From NCBI GenBank assembly GCA_031180805.1, contig JAPSLL010000045.1:1-34792 (forward strand): a stretch of 34,792 nucleotides of DNA. The letters run 5' to 3'. This document shows positions 31,778-34,792 of this stretch, one piece after another. How positions within the stretch are numbered: the stretch's first letter is position 1; each line of letters opens with the position of its first letter. A program made the translations under genes and the position numbers. The notes beneath the pieces are model-generated. The model was not told the origin of the DNA, ran no database searches, and saw only the letters and a list, made by a program, of their open reading frames with translations. This stretch comes from Bacillus sp. (in: firmicutes). Lineage in GTDB: Bacteria; Bacillota; Bacilli; Bacillales; Bacillaceae.

Positions 31778-31984
31778 CTCTTATCAAGAGTTGGCAGAGG
31801 GACTTGGCCCAATGACGCCGCAGCAACCGACCATACTACCATTGCAAGATGGGGTGATGATTTCACCTTGGATTTTATCCAATAGGGCACGGTGCTAATT
31901 CCATCAGAAAGCTTTAGCTTTCTGAAAGATGAGAGGTGAGAAGCAGTGACTTCAAGCCTCTTTCATTTATGAAAGAGGCTTTTC
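31778..31984 (+). promoter_or_regulatory. S-box (SAM-I) riboswitch with terminator
   Basis: P1 pairs CTCTTATC (31778-31785) with GATGAGAG (31928-31935). Within are conserved S-box segments: AAGAGTTGGCAGAGGGACTT, GGCCCAATGA, GCCGCAGCAACC and AAGATGGGGTGATGA. A P4-type hairpin AGAAAGC/GCTTTCT closes the 3' part. The terminator AGCCTCTTTC/GAAAGAGGCT (31955-31980) with T-run follows. High SAM should stabilise the terminator and stop transcription of mtnK-mtnA. All parts look intact. Confidence 0.95.
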
Positions 31985-32043
31985 TTTTTGTAGCGATAAA
32001 CTGAAAGCTAAATAAACATATAACTTACATGGAGGTCCTTACT

Positions 32044-33261
32044 ATGTGTGCTAGAAAATCATCAGTCTATCAACCATTAACTGAATCGGATGCGATCGCT
32101 CTTGTAAAGCGACTTATGCTGTTTGAAGATACAAGTCAACTAACTTGTAATAAAATAGGTGATGGAATTTTATACCTTAACTTTCATGTAAAAGAAACGT
32201 CAACTGATAACGGATTTATTATTAAACAAGCTTTACCTTATACAAAAATTGTAGGTGAAAGCTGGCCTTTTCCAATTGAACGTACACGTATTGAAGACCA
32301 TGCATTATTAAAACAAAGAGACTTAGCTCCGTCCTATGTTCCAAAGGTTTATTATTCAGATGTGAAGCTTGGTATTACAATTATTGAGGACTTGTCACAT
32401 CTTCACATAGCCCGTACAGCACTTATTGAAGGTAGTGAGCTACCATTGCTCTCGACACACCTAGGCGAATTTTTAGGAAAAACATTATTTTATACATCAA
32501 TTTATGCACAAAACCAACATTCGAAAAATGAATTAGAAAAGCATGTTTCAAACCCTGATCGATGTAAAGTTATTGAGGAGCTTGAAATTACAGACCCATT
32601 TTTCGAACATGAGACAATCCATAATGAACCAGAACTAAAAGCAAACGTGGAGAAAATTCAACAGGATCAATTATTAAGGCTTGAGGTAGCAAAATTGAAG
32701 GAAAAGTTTCTTACGAAGGCTGAAGCACTTATTCATGGAAATATACATACAGGAAACATCCTTGTAAGTGAGCATGAAACAAAGGTCATAGACGAAGGTT
32801 TCGCTTATTTCGGACCAATTGCGTTTGAAATCGGTCAAGTTTTCGGTCACTTTTTATTAAATGTCCTTTCACGTGACTTAGAAGATCAAGAATTCCTTTT
32901 CCAACATATCATTACAACTTGGAACGTATTTGTTGAAGAATTCTCAAAAGCTTGGCAAAAAGATGGCTCTGAAATTCACACAGCAAAAAAGGGTTATTTA
33001 GAGCATATACTTTCTGAAGTATTCACAGATGCTGTTGGCTTTGCTGGTTGCAAATTAATACGTCATACAATTGGGCTTGCCGATGTAGCAGAATTAGATA
33101 CCATACAACCATATGACAAAAGAATAACTGTAAAGCAATTAGTCCTTTCATTAGGTCATGATCTCGTTATTAAGCAAAAAAATATTACAAAGCCTGTGCA
33201 ATTTATTCAATACGTAAAACAGACAATTACAAATCGTTATCAGCATGTAGCAATAAAATAA
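32044..33261 (+). CDS. mtnK: MtnK homologue (5-methylthioribose kinase fold) with lost catalytic residues, 405 aa
   Basis: APH-fold kinase clearly orthologous to B. subtilis MtnK: retained motifs include IIKQALPYTKIVGESWPF, EDLSHLHIARTALIEG and FLGKTLFYTSIYA. ATG at 32044 follows GGAGGT by 7 nt; the ATG at 32029 lies inside that site. Numbering from this start is the same as in B. subtilis MtnK. Differences from the family at catalytic positions: HGD to HGN (Asp233 to Asn), DPE to DEG (Asp250 kept, Glu252 to Gly), GDGNLN to GDGILY (42, 44), RRTIG to RHTIG (Arg341 to His). The frame is full length and S-box controlled, so it is not a decaying gene. Kinase activity is doubtful. Confidence 0.9.
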   Translation: MCARKSSVYQPLTESDAIALVKRLMLFEDTSQLTCNKIGDGILYLNFHVKETSTDNGFIIKQALPYTKIVGESWPFPIERTRIEDHALLKQRDLAPSYVPKVYYSDVKLGITIIEDLSHLHIARTALIEGSELPLLSTHLGEFLGKTLFYTSIYAQNQHSKNELEKHVSNPDRCKVIEELEITDPFFEHETIHNEPELKANVEKIQQDQLLRLEVAKLKEKFLTKAEALIHGNIHTGNILVSEHETKVIDEGFAYFGPIAFEIGQVFGHFLLNVLSRDLEDQEFLFQHIITTWNVFVEEFSKAWQKDGSEIHTAKKGYLEHILSEVFTDAVGFAGCKLIRHTIGLADVAELDTIQPYDKRITVKQLVLSLGHDLVIKQKNITKPVQFIQYVKQTITNRYQHVAIK

Positions 33262-33295
33262 CAAAAGACTAGAGAGCGCGAAATTAGAATTTTTA

Positions 33296-33313
33296 GGAAA
33301 AAGGAGTTTTTCC
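33296..33313 (+). promoter_or_regulatory. Ribosome-binding site in a hairpin loop before mtnA
   Basis: GGAAAAA pairs perfectly with TTTTTCC and the 4-nt loop is GGAG, the ribosome-binding site. It ends 2 nt before the ATG of mtnA, so translation could be damped unless upstream translation or a helper opens it. Confidence 0.5.
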
Positions 33314-33315
33314 CT

Positions 33316-34368
33316 ATGAGTAATACTACAAATACAATACCTCGTTCTGTTATTTGGCAGGATGATTCACTTATATTATTAAATCAGCAAAAAATCCCAC
33401 AAATAACCGAATATCTTGAGCTTACAACGATTGATGATGTTTGGGATGCGATTAATACATTAAAGGTAAAAGGCATCTCTGCAACAAGTATAACCGCAGC
33501 TTATGGGCTTGCCCTTGCTGGTTTACAGGATACATCTGAATCGTTAGAGCAATTTCGTGAATTGCTACATAAGCATAGAGATTATTTAGCAAGCTCACAG
33601 CCAACAGCATTTCATTTCATATGGGCATTGGATCGATTAGTGGATAGTATAAAAGATGCAAAATCAATTAATGAGGCAAAAACAACCATTGTTCACGAAG
33701 CAATTCAAATTCAAGTAGAGAATGAAGAGATTTGCCGTTTAATAGGCGAGCATGCTCTATCTGTTTTTAATCACGGTGATCGTGTCATGACAATTGGTCA
33801 TGCAGGTTCGCTCACTACTGCTAAATATGGAACTGCAATTGCACCATTTTACTTAGCAAAGGAAAAAAATGTTGATATTCAGGTCTTTGTCTGTGAGACG
33901 AGACCAGCACTTCATGGAGCCCGATTGACTACTTGGGAGCTTATGCAAGCAGATGTCGATGTCACGCTCATTACGGATAATATGGCTGCACATACAATCA
34001 AAGCAAAAAAAATCAATGCAATTATCGTTGGTGCCGACCGAATTGCCGCAAATGGTGATACTGCAAACAAAATAGGTACATTTAATTTAGCTTTACTTGC
34101 CAATGCCTTTCAAATTCCTTTTTATGTAGCTGCTCCTTTATCAACCATTGATCCATCAATTACCAATGGTGATGATATACCTATCGAAGAACGAAATCCA
34201 AAGGAAATCACGGAAATTCAGAAAACTCAAATAGCCCCAAAGGGAGTGAAGGTTTTTAACCCTTCCTTTGATGTGACACCTGGAGAATTAATTACAGGAA
34301 TCATTACCGAAAAAGGAATATTGACTGGAAATTATCAAGAATCGATTTCTTCTATTATTGCAAACTAA
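33316..34368 (+). CDS. mtnA: MtnA homologue (methylthioribose-1-phosphate isomerase fold) lacking catalytic Cys, 350 aa
   Basis: eIF2B-like fold clearly orthologous to B. subtilis MtnA. Retained are [17 protein letters not shown] with the catalytic Asp240, [18 protein letters not shown] and [11 protein letters not shown], so overall structure should hold. Numbering here is one higher. Changed at functional positions: Cys160 of CNAG is Gly (MTIGHAG), its Asn is His, Arg51 of RGAPAIG is Lys (KGISATS), Arg94 of RPTAINL is Gln (QPTAFHF). Catalysis by Cys/Asp and phosphate binding are thus impaired. mtnK lies 54 bp upstream on one transcript; a terminator follows. Either pseudoenzyme or altered substrate. 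Confidence 0.9.
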
Positions 34369-34620: not shown

Positions 34621-34792
34621 AAGCTTGCCCCTTTCTTTCCCATATTCAACTTTTTTTCCTTACTCAAATTATATGTATTTTATTCAAACTTGTGACAAGT
34701 CATATGCCTATCGTAAGATCATGTTTGTCTTCTTCTCCTCTTATTTAGATGCTTGCGTTTACGATATAGGTTTAAAAGTGTTTTCCACTATC

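Follow-up and report, generated by a model that had tools for sequence, protein, structure and literature searches.

Two adjacent genes near the end of a 34,792-nucleotide contig of Bacillus sp. (the window, analysed at its full length) encode an MtnK-like and an MtnA-like protein that have undergone a real, shared and lineage-specific conversion to proteins lacking key catalytic residues, following loss of the lower methionine salvage pathway. Catalytic residues have disappeared from homologues that are otherwise intact, which is the usual meaning of a pseudoenzyme, and in our judgement the pair very likely lacks canonical activity. Profile-based annotation would assign to this genome a step of methylthioribose (MTR) salvage that is probably inactive. 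Relatives and a second genus provide other stages for comparison (a canonical pair, a stub), so that it becomes directly testable how pseudoenzymes arise or disappear.

Contig C117, which the window covers completely, belongs to draft genome G000 (4.58 Mb, rated 100% complete). Both genes lie on the forward strand, mtnK at 32044..33261 and mtnA at 33316..34368, 3' of a SAM-I riboswitch. The earlier note on this DNA had described them as full length and strongly similar to their families, and indeed both frames are open and the whole-length NCBIfam matches are far above cut-off (TIGR01767, 416.8 vs 275 bits for MtnK; TIGR00512, 401.6 vs 279 bits for MtnA). A second in-frame ATG is present upstream of mtnK at 32029; the ATG at 32044 is preceded by GGAGG at 32031-32035, and relatives start there too. 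Besides full-length homology, the window protein shares with MtnK (TIGR01767; PDB 2olc, 2pyw) the ancestral locus and S-box control but differs in altered G-loop, HGD, DXE and RR motifs. The second protein resembles MtnA (TIGR00512; PDB 2yrf) over its full length, and keeps D240, N250 and K251, but C160, R51, R94 and Q199 are replaced.

Substitutions in both proteins were scored against the solved B. subtilis proteins (2olc for MtnK, 2yrf for MtnA) and against 17 Metabacillus relatives. The MtnK alignment to 2olc was gap-free, so that numbers counted from 32044 are B. subtilis numbers, in agreement with those of the earlier note. In place of GXGNXN, HGD, DXE and RR the window MtnK has GXGIXY, HGN, DEG and RH. 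The underlying changes, all on the forward strand, are N42I and N44Y in the G-loop (codons 42-44, 32167..32175), Asp to Asn at the catalytic residue 233 (32740..32742), Glu to Gly at the magnesium ligand 252 (32797..32799) and Arg to His at residue 341, the second Arg of the RR motif (33064..33066). All five had been read directly from the sequence and were borne out by the alignment to 2olc and the relatives, which added P251E; D250, R340, F253, W74, L180 and L345 are retained. According to the available sections of a structural report on MtnK (PMC2194712), these four motifs are strictly or highly conserved. There, GXGNXN is the G-loop, the HGD Asp polarises O1 of MTR and forms bonds with O1 as well as O2, the two acids of DXE bind magnesium, and the first Arg of the RR motif contacts MTR whereas the second does not. 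The accessible part of another report (PMC11808438) assigns MTR recognition in B. subtilis MtnK mainly to Asp233, Arg340, Arg341 and the W-loop, and describes PsiK as completely inactive when the equivalents of D250 and E252 were changed to Ala.

Among the MtnK columns, 219 were invariant in the 17 Metabacillus relatives, and 50 of these were changed in the window and 56 in M. niabensis. With residues grouped into phosphotransfer and pocket sets by our own choice from published roles (D233 belongs to both), the window protein has lost five of the six phosphotransfer side chains N42, N44, D233, D250, E252 and R341, more than expected (P = 0.0026), and M. niabensis four of the six (P = 0.04). 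The five other MTR-pocket residues (R340, F253, W74, L180, L345) are all present in the window, and M. niabensis lacks two, L180 and L345. Enrichment over all 11 MtnK motif letters was not significant (P = 0.08 for the window, 0.30 for M. niabensis).

MtnA residues are given here with B. subtilis numbers, which we take to run one below those of the window protein, the 2yrf chain being tagged. Alignment to 2yrf and the relatives substantiated the three MtnA changes already pointed out, R51K (residue 52 of the window protein, 33469..33471), R94Q (residue 95, 33598..33600) and C160G at the catalytic Cys (residue 161, 33796..33798), and revealed two further changes, Q199H (residue 200, 33913..33915) and N161H; all four codons with coordinates are on the forward strand. 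Positions 51, 94, 160 and 199 carry K, Q, G and H identically in the window and M. niabensis proteins. The number of columns invariant in the relatives was 212, of which 28 were changed in the window, and the probability of losing all four of the three phosphate contacts and the Cys was 0.00025, or 0.003 for four of six when the kept K251 and D240 were counted as well. In the related R15P isomerase, as described in the available portion of PMC5789824, Arg22, Arg65, Gln166 and Lys215 hold the 1-phosphate and Asp204, Asn214 and Lys215 the sugar, with Cys135 and Asp204 as catalytic residues; the C135S mutant is inactive and still binds substrate, and the C135A mutant shows no substrate binding and weak product binding. 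By shared motifs, these roles would map to R51, R94, Q199, K251, D240, N250 and C160 of MtnA.

An mtnK-like match was found in 20 of the 21 genomes of the genus, with G009 contributing a short fragment and G004 nothing. Altered motifs occurred in the window genome and M. niabensis (G010), and the 17 other Metabacillus copies were canonical. The two altered pairs are 85% (MtnK) and 92% (MtnA) identical and have most losses in common, which, beside the 17 canonical copies, neither sequencing error nor the decay of one strain accounts for. The earlier note had proposed to look for these substitutions in relatives, and would have taken canonical residues in close relatives as a sign of error or recent decay. 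Such residues exist outside the clade only: the nearest species itself carries the majority of the losses, and in the one after it mtnK is truncated. We detected mtnW, mtnD above cut-off, and an aldolase-II (mtnB) match beside mtnW, as judged by coordinates, in 17/21 genomes each. G000, G010, G009 and G004 (4/21) lacked all three genome-wide, and are the same four genomes that lack a canonical mtnK. The nucleosidase gene mtnN was above cut-off in 20/21, including the window genome, with G004 as the exception. In G004 neither mtnK nor mtnW had a match, mtnD did not reach the cut-off and the nucleosidase matches all stayed below theirs, so that MTA hydrolysis and salvage have apparently been lost together. 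In G003, one of the 17 genomes with canonical motifs, mtnK is interrupted near its 3' end (C1:4304074-4305266; two pieces, internal stops), mtnA is open and mtnW is kept.

To the left of mtnKA in M. bambusae and G014 lie mtnU-E-W-X-B-D. None of the M. bambusae mtnU, E, W, X, B and D genes had a match within the window, in line with the previous remark that mtnWXBD are not seen on the left of the pair. Contig C14 begins with the 127 bases that close the window (34666-34792), an overlap left by the assembly that marks C14 as the next contig, and it carries genes for a histidine kinase, an acyltransferase, a radical-SAM protein and a penicillin-binding protein. Since these match the genes 3' of mtnA in M. 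bambusae and G014, the mtnKA locus is ancestral. An rpoB tree of 19/21 genomes (two gave no rpoB) placed G009 as sister to G000 and G010 with a support of 100. G009 has the same rearranged neighbourhood as the window, and its intact S-box (81.8 bits) is followed by a 103-residue mtnK stub (L083:9713-10274, minus strand); mtnA was not found at this locus. The stub and the window clade have E37K, N44H, A110G and M114I at columns that are otherwise invariant; at position 44 M. niabensis has H and the window has Y. The rearrangement and the first G-loop change therefore predate the G009 split. This N-lobe stub may be a relic, or it may serve as a small protein that SAM continues to regulate. In a tree of the MtnK and MtnA proteins the clade had a long branch and was not placed beside G014 as with rpoB (supports 36 and 67). 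These comparisons show that mtnW, mtnB and mtnD were lost in the clade of the window genome, M. niabensis and G009, and that the S-box is in its ancestral place in all three members, with both genes behind it in the window genome and M. niabensis.

The riboswitch itself is intact, as had been noted. The aptamer (31778..31935, forward strand) matches the full RF00162 model (1-108) with 81.1 bits, and is followed by an expression platform (31936..31990, forward strand) in which an intrinsic terminator was read from the sequence at 31956-31989, with a stem formed by 31956-31964 and 31971-31979 and a T run at 31980-31989. The aptamer is identical to that of M. niabensis at 154/158 bases, and the platform at 54/54 aligned bases plus one gap column. 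Together they are better conserved (208/212) than the upstream flank (265/304, with 13 gaps; p = 3e-6).

We then asked how the two genes have evolved since the losses. Pairwise omega between the window and M. niabensis was 0.30-0.36 for mtnK and 0.19-0.20 for mtnA; four of five neighbour genes gave 0.02-0.13 and the fifth, an 81-aa ORF, 0.19-0.35, and omega for rSAM was 0.047. Codon branch models, fitted to 13/19 sequences with a branching order consistent with rpoB, gave a background omega of 0.040 (mtnK) and 0.047 (mtnA). On the stem of the clade omega was 0.088 for mtnK, above background (p = 0.016), and 0.061 for mtnA (p = 0.42). The two terminal branches pooled gave 0.298 for mtnK and 0.181 for mtnA, about 7-fold and 4-fold the intact background; equality with the background was rejected (p = 2e-19 and 1e-6), and so was an omega of 1 (p = 3e-8 and 1e-11). 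The pooled branches thus show both genes to have been under relaxed but real purifying selection after the losses. A fit with separate omegas, which we do not rely on as it uses distant outgroups to polarise synonymous changes and yields branch lengths (0.172 vs 0.125, mtnK) that contradict rpoB and rSAM, gave 0.12 (mtnK, p = 0.04 vs 1) and 0.05 (mtnA, p = 7e-4 vs 1) on the window branch and 1.46 (mtnK) and 2.15 (mtnA) for M. niabensis, where an omega of 1 was not rejected. Equality of the two terminal omegas was rejected in that fit for mtnA (p = 0.02) and not for mtnK (p = 0.17). The fit as a whole is compatible with decay of the M. niabensis copies. Amino-acid changes since the split could be polarised to the window in 12 cases and to M. 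niabensis in 22 for mtnK (24 unclear), and in 3 and 12 cases for mtnA (13 unclear). Neither copy of either gene contains a stop; the simulated probability of this after 0.2 neutral substitutions/site on one sequence was ~3e-4 for mtnK and 2e-3 for mtnA, and after 0.08 neutral substitutions/site 0.012 and 0.051.

A search of 397 genomes of the order for the DNA pattern encoding HGNxHTG returned five places in four genomes, three of them mtnK (one in the window, the others in two species belonging to genus g23, family f20) and two not mtnK. Because this search was ascertained for Asp to Asn, D233N in g23 is no independent evidence for that change. The three g23 species examined (G039, G334 and G083; loci L089, L090 and L095) each have one mtnK, in every case behind an S-box (76-79 bits) and beside mtnU, and none of the three loci (~20 kb) had a match to M. 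bambusae mtnA, mtnW, mtnX, mtnB or mtnD. The MtnK losses are G41A and D250S in G039; N42K, D233N, D250N and E252T in G334; and G39D, N42H, D233N, E252S, R341Q and a deleted W-loop stretch in G083. R340, F253 and L180 are retained in 3/3, L345 in 2/3 and W74 in 1/3. The lone g23 gene therefore resembles the window locus in its S-box, open mtnK, eroded motifs and absence of mtnWXBD at the locus, and differs from it in that mtnA is not at the locus, mtnU is kept and the losses vary by species. All three distant species have an open mtnK of 389-397+ residues, and identity among them is 53-63% for MtnK, 72-76% for mtnU, 84-90% for rSAM and 86-88% for a CBS protein; g23 MtnK evolves fast yet stays open at saturated synonymous distance. 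Omega for g23 mtnK was 0.045 vs a background of 0.026 (p = 0.23) with neutrality rejected, a value that we do not claim given saturated synonymous sites. The similar fate of MtnK in this second genus suggests that proteins of this kind may be retained for a non-catalytic purpose.

Taken together, we lean slightly towards the view that the window pair have no catalytic activity left and are retained for a weaker function outside catalysis, which may be the binding of a ligand. Pooled selection and persistence suggest that the proteins are still wanted; the raised rates, the separate M. niabensis fit and the G009 stub point the other way. On this view both proteins would have given up their original reactions, MtnN (its gene is present) would still make MTR from MTA, and the pair would be made when SAM is low and act without catalysis. 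As the window proteins retain most of the residues that contact the sugar, the likeliest ligand would be MTR or a comparable ribose modified at position 5. MTR might be bound, buffered or reported by the pair, and presumably leaves the cell by export; E. coli, which lacks MtnK, excretes MTR, according to the available part of PMC6302742. Ligand binding is open to doubt, since D233 and R341 recognise MTR and D233 contacts the sugar in the accessible sections of PMC11808438 and PMC2194712, and since the Cys to Ala change in R15P isomerase abolished substrate binding and weakened product binding in those of PMC5789824. With D233, R341 and the MtnA Cys gone, binding could just as well be weaker.

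The main alternative is slow decay, in which loss of the lower pathway left mtnK and mtnA useless and on their way out, with G009 as the endpoint. We regard it as somewhat unlikely, although it would account for the omegas raised over background, the M. niabensis branch that alone is not distinguishable from neutral in the separate fit, the G009 locus with a stub and without mtnA, the continuing drift of residues that sets the two species apart (N42I, H/Y at 341, L180F, L345H) and the W-loop deletion in G083. It sits poorly with the rejection of omega = 1 for both genes on the pooled branches, with frames that would rarely remain free of stops under neutral simulation, with a stem omega far below 1 although change began before the G009 split, with the open mtnK of three distant g23 species and with an S-box better conserved than its flank. 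The same pooled purifying selection, and the acquisition of K, Q, G and H alike by MtnA of the two species, could also be expected of new enzymes, a pair that remains catalytic with another substrate or another chemistry; but an MtnK without the catalytic Asp and one magnesium-binding acid, pocket residues that still vary between the two species, and an unsystematic look in which no new conserved catalytic residue was noticed make this quite improbable. A sequencing or assembly artefact, or an intact second copy elsewhere, might be suspected of a window that is a whole draft contig ending 424 bases past mtnA. The separate M. niabensis assembly has most of the changes, however, the contig end overlaps C14 by 127 bases, and the search for a second intact pair gave one match each and no mtnK or mtnA beyond the window copies in a genome rated 100% complete, which leaves this explanation a negligible probability.

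The change in MtnA resembles that in eIF2B-alpha (PF01008 family), a regulatory subunit related to the isomerases. As far as the available text of PMC5789824 goes, eIF2B-alpha has lost its 1-phosphate contacts, and the catalytic Cys has become Ala in human and Gly in S. pombe; sugar phosphates bind its ancestral catalytic site as activators, according to the accessible part of PMC8187479. The likeness is an analogy and not membership: eIF2B-alpha is eukaryotic, sits in a large complex and binds sugar phosphates. The earlier note had suggested a co-evolved pseudoenzyme pair, a regulatory complex, or a substrate that does not need phosphate. The catalytic losses are real, common to a second species and accompanied by pooled purifying selection, which fits a pseudoenzyme pair; co-evolution or a complex would be a step further, as the losses accompany downstream pathway loss and in g23 the trend is seen in MtnK by itself, with mtnA not found at the locus. 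Phosphate contacts mostly lost and sugar contacts mostly kept would be compatible with a substrate not needing phosphate. A broader proposal, that Bacillales losing methionine salvage repeatedly convert MtnK to a SAM-riboswitch-controlled, MTR-binding pseudokinase, and that MtnA of this clade follows the eIF2B-alpha path to give a two-protein methylthioribose sensor or buffer, we consider unlikely, our estimate being lowered because D233 and R341 serve substrate recognition and the Cys to Ala change in R15P isomerase weakens binding. A literature search, mostly of open papers, gave no account of such an MtnK-MtnA pair among the matches listed. AlphaFold models of the two proteins, built from 5 and 4 sequences, had pLDDT values of 43 and 45. 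Elsewhere in the window, positions 855-942 on the minus strand match the BsrC small RNA (Rfam RF01410) with 47.9 bits, above the cut-off of 38.
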